Below are positions 5,136-42,797 of a stretch of DNA of 64,000 nucleotides, in pieces (position 1 is the stretch's first letter; every line of letters starts with the position of its first letter). The position numbers and the translations under genes are program-made. Origin of the DNA: a bacterium HR40 (GTDB lineage: Bacteria > Pseudomonadota > Alphaproteobacteria > Geminicoccales > Geminicoccaceae); the NCBI GenBank assembly GCA_002898275.1, contig BEIQ01000003.1:248001-312000 (forward strand), given 5' to 3'. Under the pieces are notes generated by a model, which did not search any database, was not told where the DNA came from, and worked only from the letters and a program-made list of their open reading frames with translations.

Positions 5136-5151
5136 CGGTGGCGGCCGCAAA

Positions 5152-10144: not shown

Positions 10145-10162
10145 GGCTTCCCTCCGCAGACA

Positions 10163-12163
10163 TCATTGAGCGGCCGGCGGACGCGTGGCGCCGCCGCGCG
10201 CGAGATCCGGCGGGGTGGCCTCGCCGGCCAGTCGCGCCGCTGCCGTCTCGAGATCGAGCTGTTCTTGGGCTTGCTCGCCGAGCCGTCGCAGCACGAGCCG
10301 CCGCTCCTCCGCCTCCCGCCGGCCGACCACGGCGATCACCGGGACCTTGGCGAGGGAGTGCTGGCGCACCTTGTAGGAGATCTTGTCGGCGGAGATGTCG
10401 AGCTCCACCCGAAGCCCTTGCCGCGCGAGAAGATCGGCGACCTCCCGGGCGTAACTGTCGGCATCGTTGGTGACGGTGGCCACCACCACCTGCACCGGCG
10501 CCAGCCACAGCGGCAGCCTGCCGGCATACTGCTCGATCAGGATGCCGATGAAACGCTCGAGCGAGCCCAGGATCGCTCGGTGGAGCATCACCGGCCGGTG
10601 CTTGCCGCCATCGGCACCGATGTAGCTCGCATCGAGCCGCTCGGGCAGCACGAAGTCGACCTGCAGGGTGCCACATTGCCAATCGCGGCCGATGGCGTCC
10701 TGGAGCACGAACTCGAGCTTGGGACCGTAGAAGGCCCCCTCGCCGGGGTTCAACGTCACTTCCAGTCCGGTCTCCCGCACCGCCTGCCAGAGCGCGCTCT
10801 CGGCTTGGTCCCAGACGGCATCATCGCCTGCTCGCACCGCCGGCCGATCGGCGAAGCGGATCCGCACCTGCTCGAAGCCGAAGTCGCGGTAGACCGACAT
10901 GAGCAGCGCGCAGAACGCCGCCGTCTCGGCGGTGATCTGGTCCGGGGTGCAGAAGATGTGGGCGTCGTCCTGGGTGAAGGCGCGTACCCGCATGAGGCCG
11001 TGCAGCGCTCCCGAGGGTTCCTTGCGGTGGCAGGAACCGAACTCGGCAATCCGCAGCGGGAGTTCGCGATAGGAGCGCAGCCGAGTGTTGAAGATCTGCA
11101 CGTGACCCGGACAGTTCATCGGCTTGATGGCGAGCGCTCGATCCTCGAACTCGAGGGTGAACATGTGCTCGCGGAATTTCTCCCAATGTCCCGAGCGCTC
11201 CCACAGGCTGCGGTCGATGAGCTGCGGGGTCTTGACTTCCACGTAACCTGCGGCGGCGAGACGACGACGCATATAGGATTCGATTTCGCGCCACAGCGTC
11301 CAGCCCCGCGGATGCCAGAAGGCCGAGCCGGCCGCCTCTTCCTGGAAGTGGAAAAGGTCCATCTCGCGGCCGAGACGACGATGGTCGCGGCGCTCGGCCT
11401 CGGCGAGCTGATGCAGATAGCGGTCGAGCTCCTCCTTCGTGGGGAAGGCCGTGCCGTAGATGCGCTGGAGCATCGGCCGCTTCGGATCGCCCCGCCAGTA
11501 GGCGCCCGCCACCTTGAGCAATTTGAAGGCGCCGATGCGGCCGGTCGAAGGCCCGTGCGGCCCACGGCAGAGGTCGAACCAGTCCCCCTGACGGTAGATG
11601 GTGATGCGCTCGCCCTCGGGGATGCTGTCGAGGATCTCGAGCTTGTACGTCTCGCCGAGCGCAGCGAAGCGCCGGCGCGCCTCCTCGCGGCTCACTTCCT
11701 CGCGCACGAAGGGCTTGTCGGCGCGCACGATCTCGGCCATCGCCTGTTCGATCTTCGCGAGATCCTCGGGGGTGAACGGCTCGTCGCGCGCGAAGTCGTA
11801 GTAAAAACCGTTCTCGATCGCCGGGCCGATGGTCACCTGGGTGCCGGGATAGAGCTTCTGCACCGCCTCGGCCATCACATGCGCGGCATCGTGGCGAATG
11901 AGAGGCAACGCCTCCGGGTCCTCCGGCGTGACGATCCGGACGGTGGCATCGGTCGTGATCGGTTCGCTCAGATCCCGCAACTCGCCATCGACCATCACGG
12001 CGAGGGCCCGCTCGGCGAGTTCCCTGGAGATGGCGGCGGCGATCTCGGCACCGGTCGGTGGATGGTCGAAGTCGCGCCGCGTGCCGTCCGGGAAGGTGAT
12101 GGTCGGACCGCGCACCGCGGCCTCGGGAGCCTCCGTTTGCGCACTCGCCTCACTCGCCGTCAT
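10163..12163 (-). CDS. thrS: Threonyl-tRNA synthetase
   Basis: A full-length 666-residue class II synthetase that charges tRNA-Thr and edits mischarged serine. The order is an N-terminal TGS domain (about residues 20-85), the editing domain with [13 protein letters not shown], then the catalytic core and an anticodon-binding C-terminal domain. Zinc-site segments are visible ([33 protein letters not shown]), as is motif 2, [19 protein letters not shown]. About 20 residues rich in Ala and Glu precede the TGS domain. The start is ATG at 12163. It diverges from pccB across a 183-base spacer. Confidence 0.97.
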
Positions 12164-27716: not shown

Positions 27717-30157
27717 GCCCGGATCCTCCGATTCTGCGGATCGTAGGGCGGCTCGAGGAAAATCCGCGCCGGCACGCGCTCTCCCGCGACCTCGAGCTCG
27801 TAGGTCCCGGAAAGCAGGAAGTCGCGATCGACCCCGGCCTCGTGACGCACATAGCCATAGCCGAGGGATCGAGCGACGGTGTGGCCGAACCCGGCGGACG
27901 TCAGCCAGCCGACCCGCTCGCCATTGCGATAGACGGTCTCCCGGCCCCACAGCCTCACCTCCGGATCGTCGACCATGAAGCCGGCGAAACGGCGGGTCAG
28001 CGGCTTTCGCCGTTCTTCCTCGAGCGCTTCGCGACCGAGGAAGGGCAAATCCGTTGCCAGCTTGACGGCGAAGCCGAGGCCAGCTGCGAGGGGCGAGTGG
28101 TCGGGGCCGATGTCGGCGCCCCAGGCGCGATAGCCCTTCTCCAACCGCAGCGTCTCGATCGCCCGGTAGCCGGCGAGGGTCAGGCCGAAGGCTTCGCCCG
28201 CCTCCATCAGGGCATCGAAGACGGTCAGCGCGAATTCGGTGGGCACGTGCAGCTCGTAGCCGAGCTCGCCGACATAGGTGACGCGCAGCGCGTCTACCGG
28301 TGCGCCGGCCACATGGAGCCGCCGCCAATGGGAGAAGGGGAAGGCTTCGTTGGAGACGTCCTCGCGCACGAGCTCGGCCAGCAGCTCGCGCGAGCGGGGA
28401 CCCATGAGAGAGAGGACGGAGACGGCGCCGGTGACGTCGACCAGCGTGCAATGCGCCTGCTCGGGAATGTGGCGACGGATCCAGTCGGCATCGCGGGTGG
28501 CGAAACCCGTGCCTGTCACGATGTAGAAGCGGTCCGAGGCGAGCCGCGCGACCGTGACATCGCACTCGATGCCGCCGCGCGGATTGAGCATCTGCGTATA
28601 GATGACACGCCCGACGGGGCGGCGGATGTCGTTGGCGCACAGCCAAGACAGCACGGCCTCGGCATCCCGGCCGACGAGGAGGAATTTGCCAAAGGAACTC
28701 TGGTCGAAGAGAGCGACACGTTCGCGGCAGGCACGATGCTCGCGGGCCACCGCCTCGAACCAATTCGGCCGTTCGAAGCTCGGCCGCTCCTCGCGCGGCT
28801 CGCCGGGAAGGGCGAACCAGTTCGGACGTTCGAAGCCGAGCTTCTCGCCGAAGACCGCGCCATGTTCCGCCAGTCGATCGTAGAGCGGCGAGCGCCTGAG
28901 CGGTCGACCGCTCGTCATCTCCTCCTGCGGGAAGGCAATGGCATAATGACGAGCGTAGGCCTCGAGGGTGCGCGTGCGGACCCACCGGATGTCCTCGGCA
29001 TGGCGCCCGAAGCGGCGAATGTCGACCGGCCAGAGGTCGAAGGGTGGCGCCCCGTGGGCGATCCATTCGGCAAGCGCCATGCCGGCGCCCCCACCGGCAG
29101 CGATCCCGAAGGCATTGAAGCCGGCGGCGACGAAGAGGCCGCGGACTTCCGGGGCCTCGCCGAGAATGAAGTTGCCATCGGGGGTGAAACTCTCGGGTCC
29201 GTTGACGAGCCGCTTGATGCCAACGGTCTCGAGCGCCGGCACGCGTCCGAGGGCGAGGCGCATGAGCGGCTCGAAATGATCGAAGTCGCCATCGAGCAAC
29301 TGGAAGGAGAAATCCGCCGGAACGCTGTCGGACGGAAAAGGAAGCGGGTCGGGCTCGTAGCCGCCCATGACCAGTCCGCCCACTTCCTCTTTGTAGTAGG
29401 TGAGCCGGTCCGGATCGCGCAATGTCGGTAGACCTGGAGCGACCCCAGGGATGGGCTCGCTGATCACATATTGGTGTTGCAACGACACGAGCGGAACATT
29501 GACCCCGGCACGGGCCGCGAGGTCGCGCGTCCACTGGCCAGCGCACAGGACGACCGTCTCGCAGCGCACCCGTCCCCGATCGGTGAGAACGCCGCGTACC
29601 CGCCCGTGCTCGATCACGAAGTCGACGACCCGGACTCCTTCGCCGAACGCGACACCTGCCGCTCGCGCACCCTTGGCGAGGGCGAGGGTGACATCGCTCG
29701 GGTTCACCTGGCCGTCGGTCGGCAGAAAGGCAGCGCCCACCACGTCCTCGACGGTCATGAGAGGCCACAGCTCTTGCGCCTCGCGCGGCGTCAAAAGGTG
29801 CATCTCGAGACCGAAGGATCGGGCGGTCGTCGCCTGGCGTCGCAGTTCCGTCCAGCGCTCGCGGCTGCAAGCGAGCCGCAGGCCGCCGTTCTGGCGGAAA
29901 CCGGTGGCCTGTCCCGTTTCAGCCTCGAGCCGCGCATAGAGCTCCACCGAATAGCCGAGCAGGCGAGTGATGCTGGCATGGCTGCGCAGCTGACCCACGA
30001 GCCCCGCGGCATGCCAGGTGGACCCCGAGGTGAGGCGGTCGCGCTCCACCACCAGCACCTCGCTCCATCCCATCCTGCCGAGGTGATAGGCGACCGAACA
30101 GCCGACGATGCCACCGCCGACGATCACCACCTTCGCGGATTCCGGAAGCTCGGTCAT
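27713..30157 (-). CDS. Dimethylglycine/sarcosine dehydrogenase-like FAD + GcvT-domain protein
   Basis: An 814-residue two-part enzyme. Residues 1-400 are a DAO-type FAD domain with GGGIVG at 14-19 and STWHAAGL, where His49 corresponds to the covalent-FAD histidine of dimethylglycine and sarcosine dehydrogenases. Residues 420-814 are a GcvT-like folate domain (FDQSSFGKFLL, GELGYELHVPTEFA, GLGFAVKL). Such proteins remove an N-methyl group and pass it to tetrahydrofolate as methylene-THF, avoiding free formaldehyde. ATG 30157 overlaps the upstream kinase stop. The methyl donor could be dimethylglycine, sarcosine or an analogue carried by the linked transporter. Confidence 0.87.
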   Translation of the reverse strand: MTELPESAKVVIVGGGIVGCSVAYHLGRMGWSEVLVVERDRLTSGSTWHAAGLVGQLRSHASITRLLGYSVELYARLEAETGQATGFRQNGGLRLACSRERWTELRRQATTARSFGLEMHLLTPREAQELWPLMTVEDVVGAAFLPTDGQVNPSDVTLALAKGARAAGVAFGEGVRVVDFVIEHGRVRGVLTDRGRVRCETVVLCAGQWTRDLAARAGVNVPLVSLQHQYVISEPIPGVAPGLPTLRDPDRLTYYKEEVGGLVMGGYEPDPLPFPSDSVPADFSFQLLDGDFDHFEPLMRLALGRVPALETVGIKRLVNGPESFTPDGNFILGEAPEVRGLFVAAGFNAFGIAAGGGAGMALAEWIAHGAPPFDLWPVDIRRFGRHAEDIRWVRTRTLEAYARHYAIAFPQEEMTSGRPLRRSPLYDRLAEHGAVFGEKLGFERPNWFALPGEPREERPSFERPNWFEAVAREHRACRERVALFDQSSFGKFLLVGRDAEAVLSWLCANDIRRPVGRVIYTQMLNPRGGIECDVTVARLASDRFYIVTGTGFATRDADWIRRHIPEQAHCTLVDVTGAVSVLSLMGPRSRELLAELVREDVSNEAFPFSHWRRLHVAGAPVDALRVTYVGELGYELHVPTEFALTVFDALMEAGEAFGLTLAGYRAIETLRLEKGYRAWGADIGPDHSPLAAGLGFAVKLATDLPFLGREALEEERRKPLTRRFAGFMVDDPEVRLWGRETVYRNGERVGWLTSAGFGHTVARSLGYGYVRHEAGVDRDFLLSGTYELEVAGERVPARIFLEPPYDPQNRRIRA

Positions 30158-31035
30158 GCCTTCTCCATCTCCTCGAAGGCGGCAAGCGCCTGCTGGAAGC
30201 GGCGCAAGTTCTCCTCGGTATAGGCGCGGAAATCGAAGTCGATACGCGAGTGGACTTCCGACACCATGCTCCACATCGCCTCGCGCAGCAGCGAGGCGGC
30301 GAGCATGGCCTGGGCCTCGAGTCTCAGCCCGTCGTCGACCGGACGGTCGAAATAGAGTTCGAGCATCCGGTCTCGTTCGGCTTCGTCGAGTCCATTGTTC
30401 GAGGCGAGTCCACCCAGATCGAAAAGTGGCGAGTTGAAACCGGCGTAGTCCCAGTCGACGAGCCAGAGACGCCTGCCGTCGTCTATGAAGTTGGCGGCAA
30501 GCAGATCGTTGTGACCGAACACCAGCGCGATCGGCCCGACGGCTCGCTCGAGCCGCTCGGCGATGGCGAGATAACGCGGGATCTCGTGGGCGAGCCGGAA
30601 GTTCGCTGCCTGGAGGGTGTGGGCATAGTCCCGCAGCACGTGGAAAACCCAGAAGACGAGCACCGGACCCCGCAGGTGCTTCGGAATCTCGCGATCAGCG
30701 CGGCGAACGAGCGCCACCACCCGTTCCAGATCGGAGCGAACGTCCTGGGGCGTGAGGGCGCGTCCATCGATGTACTCGAGCACGAGGATTCCGGGCTCGG
30801 CGTGGACGACCGCCGGCGAGATGCCGGCGGCGTGTGCGGCACGGCTGGCCGCGAGCTCGTTGAAGCGGAGTACCCCGTGGACCGGGATGTCCTCGCCCAC
30901 GCGCACCACGTACCGGCGGCCGCGATCCTCGACGAGGAAATTGGTGTTCGTGATCCCGCCACCGAGTGGCAGAGGGTTCGTCGGTCCGCTCCAGATGGCG
31001 AGGTGAGCGGCGCGACGCCGCGCAGTTTCGTTCAT
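30154..31035 (-). CDS. Choline-kinase/APH-fold phosphotransferase (copy 2)
   Basis: A 293-residue homologue of choline/ethanolamine and LicA-type kinases. The nucleotide loop GGGITNTNFLV is near residue 25, the catalytic segment GHNDLLAANF gives Asp177 and Asn182, and VDWDYAGFNSPLFDLG gives the metal Asp194. The Brenner motif and DW(D/E)Y pattern match copy 1, yet the two proteins differ in their substrate half, suggesting different substrates or a two-step scheme. The ATG overlaps the permease stop, and its own stop overlaps the FAD/THF gene start (both ATGA). Confidence 0.84.
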   Translation of the reverse strand: MNETARRRAAHLAIWSGPTNPLPLGGGITNTNFLVEDRGRRYVVRVGEDIPVHGVLRFNELAASRAAHAAGISPAVVHAEPGILVLEYIDGRALTPQDVRSDLERVVALVRRADREIPKHLRGPVLVFWVFHVLRDYAHTLQAANFRLAHEIPRYLAIAERLERAVGPIALVFGHNDLLAANFIDDGRRLWLVDWDYAGFNSPLFDLGGLASNNGLDEAERDRMLELYFDRPVDDGLRLEAQAMLAASLLREAMWSMVSEVHSRIDFDFRAYTEENLRRFQQALAAFEEMEKA

Positions 31036-33044
31036 GGCACGAGCCCGAGCCGCCGGCGGGTGTGCGCCGCCGCGGCACTGACGAGCCGGTCGGCGATCAT
31101 GGCGATACAGGCGACGCACAGGCCTGCCACCAACCCCTTGCCGACATCCGCCTTGGTGAGGGCGATGTAGACCTCCTGGCCGAGGTCGCGCGTGCCGACG
31201 AGAGCGGTGATCACCAGCATGGAGAGCGCCAGCATGATGGTCTGGTTCACGCCGAGCAGGATGTCCGGCAGCGCGAGCGGCAAGCGGATGTGGCGCAGGA
31301 TCTGGACGCGGGTGCAGCCGGCGGCGCAGCCCGCCTCGAGGAGTGGTGGCGGGGTACGGCGAATGCCGTGCGCCGTGTAGCGGATCGCAGGTGCCAGGGC
31401 GTAGAGGACGACGGCGATCATGGCCGAGAACTCGCCCACCCGAAACAGCATGACGACGGGGATGAGGTAGACAAAGGACGGCAGCGTCTGCAGCGTGTCC
31501 ACGACCACCTCGACCACCCGCCACAGACGGTCCGAGAGGCCGCACGCGATGCCGATGGGAATCCCGATGGCCGTTGCCACGAGTGCCGACAGACCCACGA
31601 GATAGACACTGACGAGAGCCTTCTCGAAATAGCCCGTGGCCACGACGAAGGCGGCGAGAGCGAAGACGGTAAGAGCGAGCCGGCGGCCACCCAGACGGTG
31701 GCCGGCGACCACGAGCAAAACCAGCACCCAGGGCCAAGGCTGGGCGAGCAGGAAGCGTCTCACCGGCGCGAGCAGGTTCAGCACGAGCGCCGACTTCAGG
31801 GTCTCGAGCTGATCGAAGAAGTGGACGTTGATCCAGGCGACGAGCTCGTTCCACAGCGGGCCGGTGGAGACCTGCAGGCTTTCCGGATAGGCGGCCAGAA
31901 ACGGGAACGCGCGGCCGAGCTCGGTGGTGGCGAGCGCCGCGAGGCCCAAGGCGAGCCAGACCGTTGGCCGGTCGAGAAGCCCGTCGGCGCTCTGCTGACG
32001 CGTCCGTTCGCCGCGACTTGCCGCTTTTTGACCCAATCGGTCGAGGGCGATCGCCAGCACCGTGATCGCCAGCCCCGCCTCGAGGCCGCGGCCGATATCG
32101 AGGCGGCGCAACGCCGTGAGCACGTCGTAGCCGAGCCCGCCCGCACCGATCATCGAGGCGATGATCACCATGTTGAGGGAGAGCATGATGACCTGGTTGA
32201 CCCCGACCACCAGTGTCGGCCGCGCCGCGGGGACCAGCACCCGCCACAGGCTCTGCCGAGAGGTGCAACCGGCCATCGCGGCGAAATCGCGGATCTCCGA
32301 CGGCACCTGGCGCAGGGCCAAGGCCGTGACCCGGACCATGGGCGGCATGGCGTAGAGGATGGTCGCGAGGATCGCCGACACCGGGCCGAAGCCGAAAAGA
32401 AAGAGCATCGGCAGGAGATAGGCGAACACCGGAACGGTCTGCATGACGTCGAGCAGCGGCACGAGCAGCCGCTCGAAACGCGCCGAGCGGAACGCAGCGA
32501 TGCCAAGGAGCATGCCGATCGCCACCCCGAAGGGCACGGCGATGAGGATCGAGGACAGAGTGACCATGGCGCTCGGCCACTGGCCGAAGAGGGCGAGATA
32601 GGCCAAGGAGCCGGTGACCAGCAGCACGAGGCTGCGGTCCCCCGAGCGGGCGGCGAGGAGCCCCGCGAGCAGGATCACCGCGAGCCAGGAAACGGGGGCG
32701 GCGAACGGCCCGGCGCCGGGGCTGCCGCTGCCGGCAAAACCCTCGACGAGCAAGGCGCGGACGAGCGCGAGCGGCCATTCCACGAAGGCAGCGAGGGCGC
32801 GCGTGAGATCGCGGAAACGCAGAGGCCCGATCGCCGCCTCTTCGACGAGCCAGGCCATGGAGGCCGAGAGCCAAGTCTCGAGAGGCAGCCGCCAGTCGCG
32901 CGGCAGTTCGTAAAGAAAGGCCGGAAGGGTGCGCGGCGGCAGCAGGGAGAAGAGCAGCGAGAGACCGGCCGCGGCCAGCCAACCGACCGCTGCCGGCCCG
33001 AAGAGCCGTCCTCCGTGCGCCTCCCGGAGAGCGAGACTGGCCAC
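31032..33044 (-). CDS. Betaine-type ABC transporter permease with two fused permease domains
   Basis: A 670-residue inner-membrane protein carrying two complete binding-protein-dependent permease domains in one chain, about residues 150-345 and 450-660. Each has the EAA-like loop (AAMAGCTSRQSLWRVLVP and EAGCAAGCTRVQILRHIRLP) and a GVNQ(V/T)IML segment typical of ProW/OpuA permeases. Normally ProW is one domain acting as a dimer. The start is GTG 33044, with AAGAGGTGA upstream and the ATPase stop four bases before. It would import a quaternary amine such as a betaine, driven by the adjacent ATPase. Confidence 0.87.
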   Translation of the reverse strand: MASLALREAHGGRLFGPAAVGWLAAAGLSLLFSLLPPRTLPAFLYELPRDWRLPLETWLSASMAWLVEEAAIGPLRFRDLTRALAAFVEWPLALVRALLVEGFAGSGSPGAGPFAAPVSWLAVILLAGLLAARSGDRSLVLLVTGSLAYLALFGQWPSAMVTLSSILIAVPFGVAIGMLLGIAAFRSARFERLLVPLLDVMQTVPVFAYLLPMLFLFGFGPVSAILATILYAMPPMVRVTALALRQVPSEIRDFAAMAGCTSRQSLWRVLVPAARPTLVVGVNQVIMLSLNMVIIASMIGAGGLGYDVLTALRRLDIGRGLEAGLAITVLAIALDRLGQKAASRGERTRQQSADGLLDRPTVWLALGLAALATTELGRAFPFLAAYPESLQVSTGPLWNELVAWINVHFFDQLETLKSALVLNLLAPVRRFLLAQPWPWVLVLLVVAGHRLGGRRLALTVFALAAFVVATGYFEKALVSVYLVGLSALVATAIGIPIGIACGLSDRLWRVVEVVVDTLQTLPSFVYLIPVVMLFRVGEFSAMIAVVLYALAPAIRYTAHGIRRTPPPLLEAGCAAGCTRVQILRHIRLPLALPDILLGVNQTIMLALSMLVITALVGTRDLGQEVYIALTKADVGKGLVAGLCVACIAMIADRLVSAAAAHTRRRLGLVP

Positions 33045-33048
33045 GCCC

Positions 33049-34068
33049 TCACCTCTTCCCGACGAGGACGTCGATCACCGCCTGGCGATCGACCATCCCG
33101 AGCAGCCGTCCGTTCTCGACCACGGCGAAGGGCCGCTCCGCCTCGAGGACAGCGGCGGCGAGATCGGCCACGCGGGTGGTCGGATCGAGGGTGCCGGCGA
33201 ATTCGCAGCTTCCGTCGACGGGACGCATGATGGCGCGAGCCGAAAGGATGCGCGCCCGGGGCGCGCCGGCCGTGAAGGCGGCGACATAATCGGTCGCCGG
33301 AGCGAGGAGCAGCTCTTCCGGCGTTCCGGTCTGGACGATGCGACCGTTCTGCATGATGGCGATGCGGTCGGCGAGCCGGATCGCTTCCTCGAAGTCGTGG
33401 GTGATGAAGACGATGGTCTTGGCGAGCAGGGCCTGCAGACGCAAGAACTCGTTCTGCATCTCTCGCCGGATGAGCGGATCGAGGGCGGAGAAGGGCTCGT
33501 CGAGGAACCACAGCTCCGGCTCGACCGCGAGCGAACGGGCGATGCCGACCCGCTGCTGCTGACCGCCCGACAGTTCGCGCGGGAAATGATGTTCCCGCCC
33601 CTCGAGACCGACCAGCCGGATCATGGCCCGCGCCCGCATCTCCCGCTCGGCTCGCGGTACGCCCTGGATGGCGAGCGGAAAGGCGACGTTCTCGAGCACC
33701 GTGAGATGCGGCAGCAGAGCGAAATGCTGGAACACCATCCCCATGCGGTGACGGCGGATCTCGATCATCTCGCGTTCGCTGGCGCGCAGAAGGTCGCGTC
33801 CATCGAAGATCACCTCGCCCGCCGTGGGCTCGACGAGCCGCGCCAGACAGCGCACGAGGGTCGATTTCCCCGAGCCCGACAGCCCCATGATGACGAAGAT
33901 CTCTCCGGCATGAACGACGAGCTCGGCATTGGCCACCGCGACGATCAGTCCAGCGCGCTCGAGCTCCGCCGGATCCGGATCGGGTCCGAGGCGCCGCAGC
34001 ACCCGCTTCGCCTCGGGCCCGAAGACTTTCCACAGATGGCGGCAGGCCAGCTTGACGGGACGGCTCAA
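33049..34068 (-). CDS. ProV-type ABC transporter ATPase with C-terminal CBS region
   Basis: A 339-residue glycine betaine-type ATPase. It opens KLACRHLWKVFGPEA, has Walker A GLSGSGKST, Q-loop VFQHFALLPH, signature LSGGQQQRVGIARSL and Walker B LWFLDEPFSALDP. About 110 residues after the ATPase resemble tandem CBS segments, which sense ionic strength in OpuA. The second CBS half is clearer (ERPFAVVENGRLLGMVDR). The start I prefer is TTG 34068 with CGGAG 8 bases upstream; it gives the family N-terminus. It sits between the binding-protein and permease genes. Confidence 0.88.
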   Translation of the reverse strand: MSRPVKLACRHLWKVFGPEAKRVLRRLGPDPDPAELERAGLIVAVANAELVVHAGEIFVIMGLSGSGKSTLVRCLARLVEPTAGEVIFDGRDLLRASEREMIEIRRHRMGMVFQHFALLPHLTVLENVAFPLAIQGVPRAEREMRARAMIRLVGLEGREHHFPRELSGGQQQRVGIARSLAVEPELWFLDEPFSALDPLIRREMQNEFLRLQALLAKTIVFITHDFEEAIRLADRIAIMQNGRIVQTGTPEELLLAPATDYVAAFTAGAPRARILSARAIMRPVDGSCEFAGTLDPTTRVADLAAAVLEAERPFAVVENGRLLGMVDRQAVIDVLVGKR

Positions 34069-34088
34069 TGCCGGTGCTCCGAGCCGCC

Positions 34089-35063
34089 CTATTGCCCGAT
34101 CCAGCTCCTCCAGCGCGCCTCGTTGCGCGACAGCCAATCGGCGACCACGGCTTCCACGCTCCGACCCTCGAGGTCGACCTGAGCGATCATCTCGCCCATT
34201 TCCTCGTTCGTGACCCGGAAGGCTTGGATCGCGGCGCGCGCCCCTGGCCATTTCTTTCCGAGCCCGGCCCAGGCCACCTTCCAGATCGGGCCGCGCGGCT
34301 TGCCGCAGTCGTAGGCGAGAGCAGGATTGACGCCCCAGGCCGGGTCCTCGTAGCAGGCAGGCTCGTAGGGAGGGAACTGCACCCATTCCCCGGCGTAGCG
34401 GATGGGTGCCCAGTGCGGCGCATATACCCAGGCGATGATGGGTGCCTTGCGCTGCACGGCGCTCTCGATCTCGGCGAAGAGCGCCGCGTCGGTGCCAGCG
34501 TGAACCACCTCGAAGTCGAGCCCGAGGGCCTCGACACGCTCCTCGTCATGCCCACCCCACGTCACCGGACCACCGAGATAGCGGCCCCTCGGCGCCGTTT
34601 CCGGTGTCGCGAAGAGTGGCGCGCAGTTGGCGAGCGCCCGCCAGTCGGGCAGCCCTGGACACTGCTCCTTGAGGTAGAGGGGATACCACCATTCCTCGAT
34701 GGCGAGCATGCCGGTCTCGCCGAGGTTCTCCACGAGCCCCGTCGCCACCGCCTCGTCCATCGCCTGGCGACCGGTGGTCTCCCAGATCTCCATGGCCACG
34801 TGCAGGTCGCCGGTCTTGAGCCCAGCGAACTGGGCGAGATAGTCGGCCGGCACGTATTCGACATTGTAGCCCGCCCGCTTCAGCACTTCGCCCATGATGC
34901 GGGTGGTGACGAGCTGGCCGGTCCAGTCGTGCAGCGTGAGCCGGATGGGATCGGCCGACTCCGGCCCTGCCTGGGCGCCGGCCGCCGAAAGCGCCAAGGC
35001 GAAACCGGCCGCGATCCACGGCCGTCTTTTCGAGCCTGCCTCCCGCATGATCGCTTCCCTCAT
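34089..35063 (-). CDS. Betaine-type ABC transporter substrate-binding protein (ProX/OpuAC family)
   Basis: A 324-residue periplasmic binding protein with a Sec signal peptide cleaved after AAGAQA near residue 32. The mature part is rich in tryptophans in ligand-loop positions (HDWTGQ, EIWETTG, EEWWYP, VTWGGHDE, WVYAPHW), as expected for an aromatic cage around a trimethylammonium group (inference). It opens the seven-gene operon. ATG 35063 and ATG 35048 are both possible starts. Its promoter region holds one copy of a 15-base site that recurs inverted in front of the divergent DeoR gene. Confidence 0.87.
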   Translation of the reverse strand: MREAIMREAGSKRRPWIAAGFALALSAAGAQAGPESADPIRLTLHDWTGQLVTTRIMGEVLKRAGYNVEYVPADYLAQFAGLKTGDLHVAMEIWETTGRQAMDEAVATGLVENLGETGMLAIEEWWYPLYLKEQCPGLPDWRALANCAPLFATPETAPRGRYLGGPVTWGGHDEERVEALGLDFEVVHAGTDAALFAEIESAVQRKAPIIAWVYAPHWAPIRYAGEWVQFPPYEPACYEDPAWGVNPALAYDCGKPRGPIWKVAWAGLGKKWPGARAAIQAFRVTNEEMGEMIAQVDLEGRSVEAVVADWLSRNEARWRSWIGQ

Positions 35064-35081: not shown

Positions 35082-35096
35082 GTGGGGTTGTGTGGA
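35082..35096 (+). promoter_or_regulatory. Putative DeoR-regulator operator, site 1
   Basis: GTGGGGTTGTGTGGA. It matches 14 of 15 bases of site 2 (35165-35179) read on the other strand. TGTGG is repeated at a 10-base step inside the site, one helical turn. It sits just downstream of a possible operon promoter (minus-strand TTGACT at 35125-35120, 17 bases, TGAAAC at 35102-35097), a good place for repression. Confidence 0.6.
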
Positions 35097-35102
35097 GTTT
35101 CA

Positions 35103-35116
35103 GCCGGATTTCCGGC
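35103..35116. repeat. 14-base palindrome in the divergent control region
   Basis: GCCGGATTTCCGGC: 6-base arms that are exact inverted repeats around two central bases. It lies inside the spacer of the suggested transporter-operon promoter, between the two 15-base sites. It could be a further regulator site or chance. Confidence 0.4.
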
Positions 35117-35164
35117 ATGAGTCAACAGGAAATCCTCGACAAACCCAGGAGGCACGACAAGATT

Positions 35165-35179
35165 TCCACAGAACCCCAC
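35165..35179 (-). promoter_or_regulatory. Putative DeoR-regulator operator, site 2
   Basis: On the minus strand this reads GTGGGGTTCTGTGGA, identical to site 1 except for the ninth base. It lies 12 bases before the DeoR gene start, close to the ribosome site, where bound protein would block its own expression. The 68-base gap between the inverted sites suits a looped complex. Confidence 0.6.
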
Positions 35180-35191
35180 GGAGGTGGAGCC

Positions 35192-35989
35192 GTGCGCCAC
35201 GTCCGCAACTCGTGCGAACAGGCCATCCTCGATACCGTGCGCCGCGACGGCCGCGCGCGGATCGCCGCGCTGGCACGCGCTCTCTCTGTCTCTGACGAAA
35301 CCGTGCGCCGACACGTACGGGCGCTCGTCGCCGACGGTCTCGTGCGCCGCGAGCATGGCGCGGTCGTGTGGGTGGGAGGCAGCGAACCGCCGTTCGAACG
35401 GCGGCTGTCGGTCAATGCTGCGGCGAAGCGGGCGATCGCCCGGGCGGTAGCCGAGCGGGTGGAAGACGGGGCCACGGTGATGCTCGATACCGGCTCGACC
35501 ACCGCCTATGTCGCCGAGGCGCTGGCCGCGCGTCGCGAGCTCACGGTGATCACCAATGGCATCGAGATCGCCCGTTCCCTGGTCGGCCGCAACGGCCATC
35601 GCGTCTATCTCGCGGGGGGTGCCCTCGATGCCCGGCTCGCCGCCGCCCTCGGGCCCGAGGCCTTGGCCTTCCTCGATCAGTTCCACGCCGATCTCGCCAT
35701 TCTCTCGATCGCTGCCATCGATGCCGAGCAGGGCCTCATGGACTTCGAGCTCGACGAGGCGCGAATGGCCCGCGCGATGATGCGCCGCGCTCGCCGCGTG
35801 CTGGTGGCCGCCGACCACAGCAAGTTCGGGCGGCGGGCGGCAGTGCGGGTGGCGGATCTCGGAGCGGTGGATTTGCTCGTGACCGAGGCCCCGCCGCCCG
35901 AGCCCTTCGAAGCTCAGCTGGCGGCCGCCGGCGTCGAGCTCGTGGTGGCGATGCCAGCGGCGGGCGCGAGACAGTCGGTGAGCGTGTAG
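35192..35989 (+). CDS. DeoR-family transcriptional regulator
   Basis: A 265-residue DeoR/GlpR-type regulator. The N-terminal winged helix is RIAALARALSVSDETVRRHV near residues 21-40. The C-terminal DeoRC sensor domain has MLDTGSTTAYVAEAL, VITNGIEIARSL, YLAGG and LVAADHSKFGRRA. The family usually responds to phosphorylated metabolites, which fits an operon holding two kinases (inference). The start is GTG 35192 preceded by GGAGG; the frame is open further upstream, but that DNA holds the operator sites. Its 3' end overlaps the convergent cyclase gene by 76 bases. Confidence 0.88.
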   Translation: MRHVRNSCEQAILDTVRRDGRARIAALARALSVSDETVRRHVRALVADGLVRREHGAVVWVGGSEPPFERRLSVNAAAKRAIARAVAERVEDGATVMLDTGSTTAYVAEALAARRELTVITNGIEIARSLVGRNGHRVYLAGGALDARLAAALGPEALAFLDQFHADLAILSIAAIDAEQGLMDFELDEARMARAMMRRARRVLVAADHSKFGRRAAVRVADLGAVDLLVTEAPPPEPFEAQLAAAGVELVVAMPAAGARQSVSV

Positions 35990-37167
35990 ACCGCGATCGA
36001 GCCCGCGATATCCCGCAGGACATAGGTGCCGAGCCTGTGCAGCCGGGCGGAGCGCGCGTCGCAGCCAGCCGCAAAGGCCTCCGACACCAAAATCTCGTAG
36101 CCGAGGCGCTTGGCCAGCTCTTCCAGCCGATGGGCGACATTGACCGCCGGCCCCACCACCGTGAAGTCGAGCCGGGTGGCGGTGCCGATGTTGCCCCACA
36201 GCACATCGCCCAGATGCAGCGCCGAACCTATGCCGACCGGCGGCTCGCCCGCGGCCTGCCGCTCCTCGTTCCACCGGCGAATGGCGGCGCAAGCTGCCAG
36301 CGCCGCCGCCAGCGCCCGACCGCAGGCATCGCCGGATTCCAACGGAAAGACCGCGAGCACGCCGTCGCCGACGAACTTGAGGATCTCGCCTCCATGGGCG
36401 CGCACCGCCTCGCCGACGATGTCGAAGTAGCGATCGAGGAGGGCCAGCAGTCGGTCCAAGGACATCTTTTGGGCGAGCTGGGTGAACCCGCGAAGGTCGG
36501 TGAAGCAGATGGCGGCATGGACGACCTCGCCACTGCCGCGGGCGATCGCCCCTTCCAGGATCCGCAGGCCGGCCCGCTCGCCGACATAGGTCTCGAGCAG
36601 GATGCGGGCGATCCGCCGGTTGAGCCGGATCTCGACGGCCATGGCCAAGAGCGGCAGCAGTTCTTCGAGCTCCGCCAGTTCCTCGTCGCGGAACCCGCCC
36701 GGCCGGCGGGTCGCCCAACTGGTGGCGTAGCGCTTGCCATCGGAGAACCGCATCGGCAGGGCCACATAGTCCGAGAAACCCTCGGCCCTGAGGTCGGCGA
36801 CGATGCCATAGCGCCCCTCGGCGCCTCCGGACACCTCGAGACGCTCGCGGATCCGCTCCGCTCCCTCGAAAATCTCCCGCACGGGGCTGGCGAGATAGGC
36901 GGGAGTCGCCAGGCTTTCCCGATCGTAGAGACGGATCTCGGCGCGTGCCATCCCGGGACGCCATTCCACGCTGGCGCCGACGAACTGCGGGTGCAAGGTG
37001 TGGAGGGAGAGGACGGCCCGGTCGAGCGGCAGCCCGTCGGCGCACAGCCGTTCGCAGACCCGCGGGAACAGATCGTCCACGAAGCGCAGCTGCACGCTCT
37101 CGTGGACGAGCCAGTCGATGGCGCGGCTCCGCCGCCTCGGCCAACGGCCGCTGTCCGCGATCGGCAT
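35914..37167 (-). CDS. Class III adenylate cyclase, cytoplasmic
   Basis: A 417-residue cyclase. Residues 1-190 form a sensor-like domain with no clear family match, possibly GAF-like. The catalytic domain starts near residue 210: metal aspartates are in FTDLRGFTQ and KFVGDGVLAVF, the adenine-selecting Lys is in EILKFVGDG, the matching Asp in RLDFTVVG, and the transition-state Asn and Arg in VNVAHRLEELA. All residues needed to make cAMP are present. No membrane segment is seen. Its start shares one base with the stop of the cyclic-nucleotide-binding gene (TGATG), so the two are coupled. It converges on and overlaps the DeoR gene. Confidence 0.88.
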   Translation of the reverse strand: MPIADSGRWPRRRSRAIDWLVHESVQLRFVDDLFPRVCERLCADGLPLDRAVLSLHTLHPQFVGASVEWRPGMARAEIRLYDRESLATPAYLASPVREIFEGAERIRERLEVSGGAEGRYGIVADLRAEGFSDYVALPMRFSDGKRYATSWATRRPGGFRDEELAELEELLPLLAMAVEIRLNRRIARILLETYVGERAGLRILEGAIARGSGEVVHAAICFTDLRGFTQLAQKMSLDRLLALLDRYFDIVGEAVRAHGGEILKFVGDGVLAVFPLESGDACGRALAAALAACAAIRRWNEERQAAGEPPVGIGSALHLGDVLWGNIGTATRLDFTVVGPAVNVAHRLEELAKRLGYEILVSEAFAAGCDARSARLHRLGTYVLRDIAGSIAVYTLTDCLAPAAGIATTSSTPAAAS

Positions 37168-37640
37168 CAGTGCCGCGCCTCCTCGAGCTTCTGCAGCCGC
37201 GATGTGACCTCTTTGAGTTGTTGGGTGGTCCGGTGCAGCCGCCGCGCGAGCTCGCTCATCATCTCCACGGCGATCTGGGGAAATTGGCTCACCAGATGCA
37301 GGAAGCCATCCTTCGAGATGCGCAGGACGGTGACCGGGGTTGCCGCCTCCACGGTGGCAGTGCGCGGCACATTGCAGAGGATCGCGATCTCGCCGACGAT
37401 GGCGTGCTCGCCGAGCCGCGCCACCTCGAGTTCCCCCTCGGGGGTACGCACCAGGACCCGAGCCGTCCCTTCGAGGATGATGAAGGCCGCGTCGCCCGGC
37501 TCGCCCTCGCTGCAGAGCCTCTCCCCTGGCTCGAAATGCAGTCGGTCGCTCGTGAAAGCGAGGAGCTTGAGGCGCGCCGGGTCGATCCGGGCGAAGAGGG
37601 GGATACGCCGCAGGGCTTCGACGTCCTTGTGGATGGTCAC
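37167..37640 (-). CDS. Stand-alone cyclic-nucleotide-binding domain protein
   Basis: A 157-residue protein made almost wholly of one CRP-like cyclic-nucleotide-binding domain. The phosphate-binding cassette reads GEIAILCNVPRTATVEA, with the key Glu and Arg. The C-terminal 40 residues (SELARRLHRTTQQLKEVTSR) form a likely coiled coil; there is no DNA-binding domain, so it is not a transcription factor. It is placed between the ABC-like gene (30 bases upstream) and an adenylate cyclase, suggesting that it relays cAMP to the membrane protein. That link is inference from position. Confidence 0.88.
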   Translation of the reverse strand: MTIHKDVEALRRIPLFARIDPARLKLLAFTSDRLHFEPGERLCSEGEPGDAAFIILEGTARVLVRTPEGELEVARLGEHAIVGEIAILCNVPRTATVEAATPVTVLRISKDGFLHLVSQFPQIAVEMMSELARRLHRTTQQLKEVTSRLQKLEEARH

Positions 37641-37670
37641 GGTTCTCTCCCGCTCCGTCTCGCTCTTCCG

Positions 37671-40307
37671 CTAGTCGGCATGCACCACCACCGCCCCGGC
37701 ACCGCCTGGCGGGCCGAGCTGGTCGAAGCGGCCGATGGCGGCGATCCGCCCGTGCTCCATCACGATCACCCGGTCGAAATGAGGCGACCATTCGGGGCTC
37801 GCGAGGATCCACAGCAGGCTTCGGCCGTCGAACTCCGCGAAAAGCGCCTCGCGGATCGCCTCCTGGTCGGCAGGATCGAGCGCCGCGAGCGCGTTGTCGA
37901 GCACGAGCAGCGCTGGCCGTTTCATGACTTCGCGGGCGAGCGCGAGTTTCTGCCGTTGGGCGAGAGCGAGCCGGCTGCCGCCGACCCCGCACTCGAAGCC
38001 GAGCCCCACGCGCAGGACCTGGTCGTGCAGCCCCATTTCCTCGAGCAGCTCGCGCACGAGCGCGGTGACCCGTTCCAGCGCCTGTCCTTGACCCCAGGCG
38101 ACCTTGCCGAAGAGCACGTTCTCCTGCAACGGCAAGGCGTCGTTGTAAGCATGCGGATCGAAGAAGGTGACGGCACCCTGCAAATCGGCAGGCAGATGCT
38201 CGCGCAACCAGCGCCGCGCGGCCACGACGTCGTCCTGGATCGGCCCGTCGATCAGCCCCAGACGATGGCGCGCCGCCACCAGCCGGAGGGCGAGGGCGAG
38301 CAGCCGGTCCTGGTCCGCACGCGGCAGCCGCGGCAGGGCAGCGGGGTCGATGCGCTGCAAGAGGGCGCGGTATTCCGGCAGCCGTTCCGGATCGATGAAA
38401 CTGAACTGGCGGAAATACTCGTGGTCGGGCGGCAGCTCCGAAAACAGCTCGAGCATGGTCTCGGCGAGCCGCCGGCCGACGTCGAGCAAGGGCTTGAGCA
38501 GCCCGGTTCGCTCGAGCACTTCGCGCACATAGGGATGTTCGGCGAGCCGGTCGAGATCGATTCGGCCGTCCGCTGGGGTACCGAAGAGCAAGTTCTCGGC
38601 CACCGTGGCGTTGCTGTTGTAGCGTGCCGGGTCGAAGGGCTCGACGAGGCGCGCGAGCGCCGGATCCCGGGCGAGCCGGCGGAGCATCGACTGGCGCGCC
38701 TCGAGCAAGGCACGGGCGAGCTGCGGTTCAGCTTGCGCGGCGATGCGGCCGCGCAGACCGAAGCCGTAGACATCCTCCTCGAGCCGGACGAGCGCCAGGA
38801 CCCGTCTGACGCGAGCGAAGCGCGCCTGCGGGTCGGGGATACCCGCCTGGGCATCGTCGACCCAGTCGGCCGCCGGATCGAGGGGAAGATTGCCCGAACG
38901 CCGCGCCTCCCGGAGATAGCGCTCGAGTTCGGGATCGGGCGGACGGGAGCGCACCGGCCGATGCAGCAGCCCGTAGAGCAGATTGGCCTCGATCGTGCCG
39001 CGGAAGATGTGGCTGGGATTGCCGACATAGCCGATGCGGCGACCGAGAACGGATTCCGGCAGTTCGTGCAGGTTGCGGCCGTCCATCAACAGCCGCCCCG
39101 AGGTCGGCGGCAGCAGTCCGGCGGCCACGAGGCCGAGAGCGTGCCGGCCGCTTCCGGCCCCGCCGAGCACGGCGACGCGAAGGGGAAGGTCGAGGGCGAA
39201 TTCCACTCCGTCCAGCAGCATCGTCCCCTCGTCCTCGAGGACGAGCTGGATGGCGCGCAGCTCGCGCGAGAATTCGGGCGCGTCCTCCGGCGGGTCGGCG
39301 TCGAGGAGCCGCAGGTCCTTGAGACCGGGAGGGACGAACTGCGCCACCACTTGTTCGTATTTGATCTTGACATCGTACATCGTTTGGTACCAGGTCAGCA
39401 ATTCCTTCCACGGCGCTGACAGGTCCTTGTGAGCGTTGAGTACCGCCACCAAGGCACCGAGAGTGAGTTCGCCCTGTATGACGAAATACCCACCGATCGT
39501 GAAGAAGAAAAAAGGCCCGAGTTGAGCCATGAAGTTGTTGATAAACTTGATGAGAAATTTCTTTTTGTAGATTTGGAATCGGATAGAGAAAACCGCAGCG
39601 AGCTGGTCGCTGAAACGCGCCCGTTCGAACAGGGAAGTATCGTTGGCGTGGACGTCGACGATACCGCTCGCGGTCTCGCCGATCTTCTCGGCGTTGCGAC
39701 GGACCTGCTGCACTCGCTGCTTGCCGAGCTCGTTCACCTGACGCTGCAGCTTCGGGATGATATAGGCTTGCAGCGGATAGAGGGCGATCGCCGCCAGTCC
39801 CAGCAGCCAATCCTGCACGAATACGAAGGCCAGGATGGTGAGCAGCGTCCCTCCCTGAAAAGCAGGCGTCGCAAAGGCTTCGCCGACGAAGCCACCCAGT
39901 GGCTCGACCTCGGCATTGATCATCTGGACGAGCTCGCCCTGACTGAGCTTGCGGAAATACGGCAGGGGAAAGCGCAGGATCTGGCTGTAGAGCTGGTAGC
40001 GCAGCCGCCGCAGCATGCGCTCGGCGACGATGCCGGCATAGACGTTGAGCAGGTATTTGAGGGCGCCGGCGACCGACACGAGCAGCAAGAAGGCGCCGCA
40101 AAGCACGAAGAGATAGCCCGTTTGGTCGAGCGCCACGCCATAGAGCTCGTACACGTCGACTCCGCCAGCGAGCGCCCGGTTGACGATGAGCTTGGGCAGC
40201 TCGAGCGTGGCGTAGAGGACGGGAAAGGTGCCGACGGTGAGCCCCAGGATGACCAGTTGCTGGCGCCAGCTGTACTTCCAGACGAAACGGAAGATCGTGG
40301 GTTCCAC
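37671..40307 (-). CDS. ABC-exporter-like membrane protein with degenerate, expanded ATPase domain
   Basis: An 878-residue protein with an exporter-type transmembrane domain (about 1-320) and an NBD-like half (350-878) in which every catalytic motif departs from consensus. Walker A is GGAGSGRH (382-389), lacking the Lys. The Q-loop Gln is Asn430. The signature is RLALAQ (779-784) instead of LSGGQ. Walker B ends LLVLDN (Asn805 for Glu). The H-loop His is Ser837. About 280 extra residues separate Q-loop and signature and hold two further copies of a (T/P)(I/V/L)xxN(L/V)L(Y/F)G motif (437-446, 567-576, 724-734). The GTG start has GGGAG six bases upstream. It leads a three-gene unit with the cyclic-nucleotide-binding and cyclase genes. 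ATP-driven transport is doubtful. Confidence 0.85.
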
Positions 40308-40472: not shown

Positions 40473-42797
40473 ATGCGCATCGCGGTGGTCGGCGGCGGAC
40501 CTGGCGGGCTCTATTTCGCGCTGCTCGCGGCCCGCGACATCCCCGGGGCCGAGATCGACGTCTTCGAGCGCAACGCGCCCGACGACACCTTCGGGTTCGG
40601 CGTGGTGTTCTCCGATAGCACCCTCGACAGCTTCGAGGCCACCGACCGCCCCAGCTACGAGGCGATCCGCGACAATTTCGCCTATTGGGACGACATCGAG
40701 GTGCACTTCAAGGGTACGGTGCACCGGATCGGCGGCAATGGCTTTTGCGGTTGCTCGCGCGTCAGCCTGCTCGCCATCCTCCACGAACGCTGTCGGCAGC
40801 TGGGCGTGCGGCTGCATTTCCGGCGGGAGATCGAAAGCCTCGACGCGCTTTCCGACTATCACCTCGTGGTCGCAGCGGATGGCGTGAACAGCCGCTTTCG
40901 CGAGACTTTCCGCGACCACTTCCGCCCGGAGGTCGACCTCCGGCCCAACCGCTTCGCTTGGATGGGCTCGACCCGCCCGCTCGATGCTTTCACCTTCTTC
41001 TTCCGCGAGACCCCTTGGGGCCTCTTCATCGCCCATTGCTACCAGTACGAGAAGGGCCGCAGCACCTGGGTACTCGAGACCGATCCCGAGACCTTTGCCC
41101 GCGCCGGCCTCGAGGGGAAGAGCGAAGAGGAGAGCGCGCGCTTTCTCGAGGGCGTGTTCGCCGACGAGCTCGGCGGCCATCGCCTGCTCACCAACCGGTC
41201 GCATTGGCGACGCTTTCCCATGATCCGTTGCCGCACCTGGGTCAGGGATCGGCTGGTGCTCATCGGCGACGCCAAAGGGACCGCGCATTTCTCGATCGGC
41301 TCGGGCACCAAGCTGGCGATGGAGGATGCGATCGCGCTCCACGACGCGCTGCTGCGCCATCCCGACATTCCAGCCGCGCTCGCCGCCTTCGACCAGGAGC
41401 GTCGCGAGGAGGTCGAGAAGACCCAGCATGCCGCCGACGTGTCGCTCGTCTGGTTCGAGCACGTGCGCCGCTATTGGCACATGACGCCGGTGCAGTTCTG
41501 TTTCGGTCTCATGAGTCGCGCCAAGGCGGTCACCTACGACAATCTCAGGCTGCGGGATGCCTCCTTCGTCGATCTCGTCGACCGCGACGCGGCGGAAAAG
41601 GCGCGCGCCCTCGGCTTCGACGTGCCCGATCCGCCACCGCCTCCCATGTTCCTGCCGTTTCGGCTGCGGGAGATGGTGCTGGACAATCGCGTCGTGGTCT
41701 CGCCGATGTGCATGTATTCGGCCGAGGACGGGGTGCCCAACGACTGGCACCTCGTGCATCTCGGCTCGCGGGCGATCGGCGGGGCGGGCCTGGTCTACAC
41801 CGAGATGACGGATGTGGCGCCCGAGGCCCGCATTTCCCCGGGCTGCACCGGTCTCTGGAACGACGCCCAGGAACGAGCCTGGAAGCGCATCGTCGATTTC
41901 TGTCATGCCCACAGCCGCGCCAGGATCTGCCTGCAGCTCGGCCACGCCGGCCGCAAGGGCGCGACCCGGCGGATGTGGGAGGGCATCGACGAGCCGCTGG
42001 CGGAGGGAGCCTGGCCCATCCTCTCGGCCTCGCCCCTCCCCTATTACCCCCACAGTCAGGTGCCGCGCGAGATGACTCGCGAGGACATGGACCGAGTCAT
42101 CGCCCAGTTCGTCGAGGCGACCCAACGGGCGGCGCGTGCCGGCTTCGATATGGTGGAATTGCACTGCGCCCACGGTTATTTGCTCGCCTCCTTCATCTCG
42201 CCCCTCACCAACCGCCGCACCGATGGCTATGGCGGTAGCCTCAACAACCGTCTGCGGTTCCCCCTCGAGGTGTTCGAGGCGATGCGCGCCGTATGGCCCG
42301 AGGAACGGCCGATGTCGGTGCGGATTTCGGCCACCGACTGGGCACCGGGCGGGCTCGAGGAGGACGAGGCGGTGGAAGTGGCGCGCGCCTTCGTCGCCGC
42401 CGGTTGCGATCTGATCGATGTGTCGACGGGTCAGACGGTGCCCTGGCAAAAGCCGAAGTACGGCCGCATGTTCCAGGTGCCCTTCGCCGATCGCATCCGC
42501 AACGAGATCGGGTGCGCCACCATGGCGGTGGGCAACATCACCACGGCCGATCAAGTCAACACCATCGTCGCCGCCGGCCGGGCCGACCTCGTGGCCCTCG
42601 CCCGCCCGCATCTCTCGGATCCCTATTTCACGCTGCGGGCGGCCGCCTTCTATGGTTGGCAGGGGGTCCAGTGGCCAGTGCAGTATGCGCCCGGAGCCGA
42701 TCAGCTCTACCGCACCCTGGCGCGGGAACGGGAGGAGCTGACCCAGCTCCGCCTCGCAGCCAGACCGAAAAGCCACCGTCCGGTCGAGCGGCGCTAG
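40473..42797 (+). CDS. Fused FAD monooxygenase / Old Yellow Enzyme (anthraniloyl-CoA or salicylyl-CoA hydroxylase type)
   Basis: A 774-residue bifunctional flavoenzyme. Residues 1-385 are a group A FAD monooxygenase ([13 protein letters not shown] motif [26 protein letters not shown]). Residues 390-774 are an Old Yellow Enzyme domain ([43 protein letters not shown]). Length and order match salicylyl-CoA 5-hydroxylase and 2-aminobenzoyl-CoA monooxygenase/reductase, which hydroxylate and then reduce an aromatic CoA thioester. The ATG follows AGAGGAGG. No aryl-CoA ligase or ring-cleavage gene is nearby, so the exact substrate stays open. Confidence 0.88.

Follow-up and report, generated by a model that had tools for sequence, protein, structure and literature searches.

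An alphaproteobacterial ABC exporter-like protein with degenerate ATPase motifs, a cyclic-nucleotide-binding partner and a link to glycosyltransferases

ATP-binding cassette (ABC) exporters of the MsbA and PglK type (type IV) join a transmembrane domain (TMD) to a nucleotide-binding domain (NBD), and PglK is described in the relevant part of PMC5395944 as a flippase of lipid-linked oligosaccharides. In TmrAB, CFTR, SUR and ABCG5/G8 one ATP site is degenerate and the other hydrolyses, as set out in the passages of PMC7756269 on these proteins, and HetC of Nostoc is an ABC exporter with a cyclic-nucleotide-binding (CNB) domain, whose ATPase and peptidase residues are essential according to the sections of PMC10986499 devoted to it. 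Here we analyse a stretch of 64,000 nucleotides from bacterium HR40 (Geminicoccaceae; contig BEIQ01000003.1, positions 248,001 to 312,000), called the window below, with all coordinates counted from its first letter. Three genes lie head to tail on its minus strand and encode an ABC exporter-like protein with degenerate ATPase motifs (the pseudo-ABC), a CNB protein and a class III adenylate cyclase (Table 1). An original prediction, made from the letters alone, had placed the three genes there, and all three open reading frames (ORFs) were confirmed. The pseudo-ABC starts with GTG at 40307, its stop codon is 30 nt from the CNB start, and the CNB stop shares one base with the ATG of the cyclase (TGATG), as expected for a single transcript. 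Pfam calls ABC_membrane and ABC_tran in the first protein, cNMP_binding in the second and Guanylate_cyc in the third, and the closest named relatives are from Geminicoccaceae and other alphaproteobacterial metagenome-assembled genomes.

Our preferred reading, held tentatively and at slightly less than even confidence, is that the 878-residue protein has the ABC exporter fold, is conserved and ATPase-dead, and forms the cyclic-nucleotide-controlled membrane part of an envelope-glycan system. The loss of motifs is evident in the protein itself. The original prediction had every catalytic motif lost or changed, and all five changes that it listed are present, among them Lys to Arg in Walker A, where we found in addition a Ser/Thr389 to His change that it had passed over; "every" goes too far, as Asp804 and the final residue of the signature, Gln784, are left, two of ten canonical ATPase positions. 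Recurrence of the losses across genomes had been named as a check, and they do recur. A search of 385 genomes of the class (E<=1e-60) gave matches in 131, about one third, mostly at full length and with 34-67% identity, a minority being contig-end fragments or the TMD only. A 398-genome sample of the phylum gave 28 matches, of which 27 belong to the same class (the window's own genome included) and the last covers residues 11-318 only. The family is thus found almost only in Alphaproteobacteria in the genomes sampled. In a census of 95 aligned proteins (71, with 24 added), Walker A has Lys388 in 48 and Arg at that place in 37, and Ser/Thr389 in eight with an acidic residue in 68; the Q-loop keeps Gln430 in 14 and the H-loop His837 in two; Ser781, Gly782, Gly783 and Gln/Glu784 of the signature are found in 50, 8, 12 and 85, and Asp804 and Glu805 of Walker B in 21 and 49. 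No protein has more than six of the ten positions, and Ser/Thr389 together with His837 occurs in none of the 95. Since the losses recur across these proteins, the pseudo-ABC is, judged by its motifs, a family-wide pseudo-enzyme and not a single decayed copy. The NCBI name of the Rhizobium etli gene is plainly "ABC transporter ATP-binding protein".

A decaying pseudogene or an assembly artefact is another way to arrive at motif losses like those of the window protein, and the copy of Sinorhizobium meliloti 1021 is indeed in two frames, with eight more S. meliloti matches listed in two pieces. Full-length open frames in most of the 131 genomes, like substitutions across families, and the invariant positions of the TMD together with Asn442, Asn572 and Asn730 speak against it. 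We give this explanation next to no weight, and for the family as a whole it is ruled out by conservation, but decay of the pseudo-ABC is possible in some lineages.

The second line of evidence is the coupling to the CNB protein, as read from gene order. We compared 72 loci, which are the window, 11 of 12 close relatives and 60 others (L020, on a short contig, is not among them). The CNB gene adjoins the ABC gene downstream in 61 of them (once at a distance of 619 bases), is fused to its C-terminus in eight and is absent from three (L081, L086 and L095). Genomes G087 (L081) and G157 (L095, whose contig has 4987 bases) carry a close CNB on another contig. The fused form is one group on the FastTree tree with support 77, and the tree requires a single change, so we rejected several independent fusions and do not take fusion as repeated evidence. 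The CNB protein matches PF00027 and its phosphate-binding cassette has the Glu and the Arg; in the 69 CNBs, Gly83 and Arg93 are invariant and position 84 is Glu in 66 and Asp in three. Near the CNB gene of L014-L018 there is an RNase Z-like protein of the metallo-beta-lactamase fold, about 280-297 residues long. It might be a cyclic-nucleotide phosphodiesterase; for the one in L015, the only one scanned, RNase Z profiles come on top, and similarity to the phosphodiesterase model is weak, at 40 bits where the cut-off is 400.

The third line of evidence lies beyond the original prediction and concerns glycan synthesis. Clustering of neighbouring ORFs placed GT28-type (PF04101) glycosyltransferases at 43 of the 72 loci and GT4 (PF00534) at 42, nearly always on the opposite strand from the ABC gene, which is a co-localisation of the kind looked for in a PglK-like flippase. 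The window's own genome has GT28, GT4, GT4 and GT28 in a row on another contig, after which come an oligopeptide-type ATPase and an SBP5 binding protein; no match to the two permeases was found in that stretch. The annotated run on R. etli p42e consists of a cyclase, an ATPase, a binding protein, two permeases, three glycosyltransferases, the pseudo-ABC and the CNB, and the gene order on S. meliloti pSymB is the same. Beside this glycosyltransferase operon is a gene of the UDP-sugar-dehydrogenase type, in L123 (R. etli p42e) at 28026-29363 and in L122 (S. meliloti) at 686-2020, and such a gene, with 35% identity, is also found in G022 (L115, 14736-15986); it is a hint of uronic acid in the glycan.

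Co-occurrence was counted over the same 385 genomes with one GT28 protein and one SBP5 protein as queries (cut-offs 1e-60 for ABC, 1e-20 for GT28 and 1e-70 for SBP5). ABC and GT28 occur together in 126 genomes, ABC only in five, GT28 only in four and neither in 250; for ABC and SBP5 the corresponding counts are 121, 10, 3 and 251. All three are present in 120 and none in 250, with 15 mixed, so that 370 of the 385 are concordant. The GT28 and SBP5 genes are mostly grouped with more GT28 and GT4 genes, and in many cases they lie next to the ABC gene. Among the four genomes that have GT28 and no ABC, completeness is 68-86% for G025, G064 and G137, and the fourth, G070, is a complete genome whose match is weak. 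The cyclase (1e-30) and ABC occur together in 117 genomes, with ABC only in 14, cyclase only in 19 and neither in 235. Of the 19 with cyclase only, 16 also lack GT28 and SBP5, and there are genomes of 5 to 8 Mb among these. The pattern is thus not a matter of genome size alone.

The NBD also seems to have been rebuilt, which was likewise not part of the original prediction. An AlphaFold2 model made from 12 sequences (mean pLDDT 80.9, pTM 0.76; by ten-residue blocks the NBD is mostly at 77-96 and the TMD below 60 in parts) aligns structurally to ABC exporters, including MsbA, TmrAB and TM287/288. Residues 344-873 align to the NBD of ComA with Z 27.8 and a root-mean-square deviation of 2.3 over 233 residues; they are about 290 residues longer, and the excess sits between the Q-loop and the signature. 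In this region the pattern NLLYG/NLLFG/NVLFG recurs at 442, 572 and 730, with an Asn that 91, 92 and 91 of the 95 proteins retain, respectively. Comparison of sub-alignments with hhalign matches unit 2 to unit 3 with probability 98.4 (E 3.4e-14), unit 1 to unit 2 with 77.7 (E 2.2e-6) and unit 1 to unit 3 with 75.3 (E 3e-6). A Foldseek search with a model of the insert alone (pLDDT 88) found nothing at E<=0.001. In VIA-align, the part of the insert from residue 114 to 260 (about 559-705 in full-length numbering) matches the segment from Q-loop to signature of MRP2, TAP, IrtAB, P-glycoprotein and MsbA, and ABC proteins with about the same segment fill the first 14 rows; as Z is 3.7-4.6, under the noise mark of the tool, this backs three copies only jointly with hhalign, which is the stronger evidence. 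From sequence comparison we thus read the single NBD as holding three copies of the Q-loop and helical-subdomain segment.

A few members have only the TMD, and none had been foreseen. Genome G324 (1.6 Mb, 91% complete) keeps a lone TMD of 345 residues (L134:2194-3231, minus strand), with no NBD in the stretch around it; it is divergent from four glycosyltransferases, and the next downstream ORFs are unrelated (one ZapA-like protein, by eye). TMD-only paralogues with open frames of 404-425 residues are found in G379, G107, G705 and G708 (L135, L136, L137 and L141), and the 16-18 kb around them gave no glycosyltransferase matches. The one in G379 (L135:7868-9094, plus strand) has MerR regulators, a cation-diffusion facilitator and a CcdA-like protein nearby, by eye, and possibly sits in a metal-resistance island. 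A gene in G139 that looked split into TMD and NBD was set aside as an assembly break, both pieces stopping at contig ends. The TMD-only members mean that the TMD of the pseudo-ABC is able to exist without an attached ATPase.

It is conceivable that the pseudo-exporter moves nothing, and is instead a membrane anchor that assembles glycosyltransferases under regulation by the CNB. The near-perfect co-occurrence with GT28, an NBD rebuilt with two extra helical units and the TMD-only form next to glycosyltransferases in G324 would all agree with such a scaffold. However, alignment A1 has 112 invariant columns and 84 of them fall in the TMD (residues 1-325), which exceeds the need of a mere anchor, and the importer-type SBP5 partner suggests a substrate that crosses the membrane. 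We consider a pure scaffold quite unlikely.

The cyclase is where the window departs from most of its family. The original prediction had its catalytic residues intact, and the six that we take to be the catalytic set, namely the two metal Asp, the adenine-specifying Lys and Asp, the Asn and the Arg, are all there. It had also named recurrence of the order of the three genes as a check, and this was borne out for one half only: ABC and CNB are adjacent or fused in 69 of the 72 loci, whereas a cyclase of the window type follows directly after the CNB gene in nine, all in one clade with support 99. Rarity of the three genes together, which the prediction itself had named as the finding to count against it, accordingly applies to the cyclase but not to ABC and CNB. 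In the window clade, four of the nine have one open frame and all six residues (the window, L009, L013 and L050). A class III cyclase is close by in seven other loci (L014-L017, L063, L066 and L108) and further off in two (L082 and L094), and for 54 of the 72 none is present in the fetched stretch, some of these stretches being short. The R. etli cyclase is at the far end of a ten-gene run. Presence of a cyclase nearby changes state six times on the tree, which would fit repeated pairing or loss. In L051, from a one-contig genome (G131), the cyclase at 10001-11180 on the plus strand shifts frame between residues 119 and 120 while the match is continuous, and this may be a broken gene, a sequence error or recoding.

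A cyclase, a CNB protein and a membrane protein are also the plan of Pycsar, and the trio could be read as an anti-phage system resembling Pycsar or as some other island of local signalling. The cyclase matches the PADLOC PycC model (E 6.5e-27) and the CNB matches PycTIR/effector models (E about 4e-16). The ABC-CNB pair is, however, widespread, syntenic and tied to glycosyltransferases, with no island; the cyclase is missing at most loci; and the window cyclase retains Lys264 and Asp334, which we take to specify adenine. Defence was therefore set aside on context and cyclase residues, the profile matches being all that points to it, and we find it very improbable.

If the pseudo-ABC is the controlled membrane part of a glycan system, we can picture its work as follows. 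The glycosyltransferases would make a product, probably lipid-linked or an oligosaccharide, on the cytoplasmic side of the inner membrane. A dimer of the pseudo-exporter would translocate it, or dock the enzymes that synthesise it, without a cycle of ATP hydrolysis. The rebuilt NBD would serve as a regulatory and docking platform that carries the CNB protein, and a cyclic nucleotide bound there would open, close or recruit the complex. In the window the cyclase of the operon could supply the nucleotide locally, and in most other genomes it would come from cyclases elsewhere. The locally made cAMP of the original prediction fits the window and is not a rule for the family; ATP-independence, the ligand and gating by cAMP are what we infer from these patterns. 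A more specific form, in which the energy input has been swapped for a signal input and the protein is a cyclic-nucleotide-gated gate for glycan or glycolipid, opened via the CNB subunit and passing the glycosyltransferase product across the inner membrane, is possible but doubtful. If true, an ATP-driven pump would have turned into a ligand-gated membrane device in free-living bacteria, as SUR and CFTR have in animals, and a widespread glycosyltransferase cluster would gain a membrane step and second-messenger control. Mutants are easy in such bacteria, and R. etli CFN 42, a laboratory strain, has all the genes of the system in a single run, which makes the predictions testable there.

Several observations weigh against this reading of a cyclic-nucleotide-controlled, ATPase-dead glycan component. 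Among the cyclases of the window clade, L051 is in two frames and L052 lacks the first 88 residues in frame, both with the six residues kept; the Asn is missing from L011 and L012, and a contig end truncates L010. Outside the clade all six residues are kept, in the alignment, by none of the seven nearby cyclases nor by that of R. etli. Position 94 of the CNB is Thr in 59 of the 69, presumably a cGMP-type residue, and no CNB was found at E<=1e-15 in G108 (the genome of L086) and G324. The main doubt about the ligand is that the CNB of the exporter HetC binds ppGpp and not cAMP, as reported in the part of PMC10986499 on that domain. The co-occurrence counts ignore the relatedness of the genomes. 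In S. meliloti 1021 (pSymB) the pseudo-ABC (L122:15724-18433) and the cyclase (L122:2468-3813) are each split over two frames, and among the S. meliloti ABC matches listed three are in one piece (H3, H11 and H30) and nine in two (H18 and H20-H27), which may be a sign of decay in that lineage or of something else. The S. meliloti gene SMb20813 is termed an msbA homologue where PMC10945364 mentions it, and going by its number it may be the pseudo-ABC gene. SMb20804 and SMb20805 are named alongside capsule (KPS) genes in a passage of PMC5539429, and PMC6180224 mentions a spontaneous variant of SMb20811 in a strain whose symbiosis was normal; neither report is mapped to the pseudo-ABC locus.

A further objection is that the NBD may still bind nucleotide. 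Walker A has Lys or Arg in 85 of the 95 proteins and Glu805 is kept in 49, so residual binding of ATP is possible, and the degenerate sites of known exporters do still bind ATP, as stated in the section of PMC7756269 on such sites, where Lys to Arg is also given for the degenerate site of ABCG5/G8. The chief rival to our reading is accordingly a nucleotide-binding gate or a heterodimer, in which the NBD binds ATP or another nucleotide without useful hydrolysis, in the manner of SUR and CFTR or with an unlinked half-exporter as partner, and the CNB merely modulates. SUR2A, a channel regulator, heads the structural ranking of the model (Z 30.0, and 28.2 for the next row), and the window's own genome encodes further exporter-like ORFs, so a heterodimer with another half-exporter is conceivable. 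Against it, Ser/Thr389 is acidic in 68 of the 95; Walker A and the signature are both degenerate in the same chain, which would leave neither site of a dimer unspoilt; the neighbour clusters seen show no recurring second half-exporter; and there are members with the TMD only. We regard it as unlikely, although not far-fetched.

The genes that flank the three look unrelated to them. Divergent from the ABC gene, at 40473-42797 (plus strand), is a flavoprotein, a bifunctional salicylyl-CoA 5-hydroxylase/oxidoreductase (NCBIfam 1147.8 bits, cut-off 1078), and convergent with the cyclase a DeoR-family regulator at 35090-35989, past which lies a choline/betaine ABC locus. There, a 670-residue protein at 31032-33044 (minus strand) has two BPD_transp_1 stretches and unites in one chain two permeases of a choline/betaine-type ABC importer, adjoining its ATPase (33049-34386) and an OpuAC binding protein (34089-35063). 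A glycine riboswitch aptamer (RF00504, 55.8 bits) is found at 5149-5250 on the plus strand.

Table 1. Positions in the window of the three genes and of their domains and motifs
Feature	Position	Strand	Basis
Pseudo-ABC exporter half-transporter, TMD and degenerate NBD, 878 residues	37671..40307	-	PF00664 and PF00005; AlphaFold2 model aligns to ABC exporters
Transmembrane domain, about residues 1-325	39333..40307	-	PF00664 at 68-290; modelled helices; sole part kept in L134
Degenerate Walker A GGAGSGRH (382-389), Lys388Arg and Ser/Thr389His	39141..39164	-	sequence and 95-protein alignment
Helical-subdomain unit 1, about residues 425-520, ANLLYG	38748..39035	-	hhalign to units 2 and 3; model
Q-loop Gln430 to Asn, in GYVGNPSH at 426	39018..39020	-	sequence and 95-protein alignment
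Helical-subdomain unit 2, about residues 555-700, ENLLFG, extra copy	38208..38645	-	hhalign; weak alignment to Q-loop-to-signature segment of ABC NBDs
Helical-subdomain unit 3, about residues 713-778, ENVLFG, runs into signature	37974..38171	-	hhalign
Degenerate signature SRLALAQRQ (778-786), LSGGQ to LALAQ	37950..37976	-	sequence and 95-protein alignment
Walker B LLVLDN (800-805; LLVLDNA at 800), Asp804 kept, Glu805 to Asn	37893..37910	-	sequence and 95-protein alignment
H-loop His837 to Ser, in ILASPEW at 834	37797..37799	-	sequence and 95-protein alignment
Stand-alone CNB protein, 157 residues	37167..37640	-	PF00027; top solved relatives are regulatory subunits of protein kinase A (PKA)
Phosphate-binding cassette VGEIAILCNVPRTATV (82-97)	37350..37397	-	alignment of 69 CNBs
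Class III adenylate cyclase, 417 residues	35914..37167	-	PF00211
Cyclase catalytic residues D224, K264, D268, D334, N343 and R347, all intact	36127..36507	-	alignment

The kinds of components are all known, as MsbA-like exporters, degenerate sites and CNB domains on exporters, and it is the combination that stands out; in open-licence full text we found no description of ABC, CNB and glycosyltransferases together or of the three-copy helical segment. The pseudo-ABC shares the TMD and NBD fold with the MsbA and PglK-type exporters, and MsbA is its top NCBIfam profile, at 168 bits under a cut-off of 602. PglK is moreover a functional parallel next to glycosyltransferases, but the pseudo-ABC differs from both in being without the catalytic motifs and in having three copies of the helical subdomain and a CNB partner. 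With TmrAB, CFTR, SUR and ABCG5/G8 it has in common substituted Walker A, Walker B, signature and H-loop motifs under selection, with the difference that its motifs are degenerate within a single chain. In HetC, as in the cyc_nuc_ocin / NHLP exporters, the system that we take to be behind TIGR03896, an ABC exporter is fused to or associated with a CNB; the pseudo-ABC has, in contrast to HetC, lost the ATPase motifs, has no peptidase domain that we could find and is set among glycosyltransferases. Cyclic-nucleotide-gated channels such as MloK1 and SthK, which are among the matches of the CNB protein, have a CNB with an intact phosphate-binding cassette, as here, where control of the membrane part is a prediction, but the membrane part of the pseudo-ABC is an exporter TMD and not a channel, and its CNB is usually a separate protein. 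Pycsar likewise has a cyclase adjoining a CNB effector and a membrane protein, whereas the system of the window has adenine-type cyclase residues, a glycan context and no island character.

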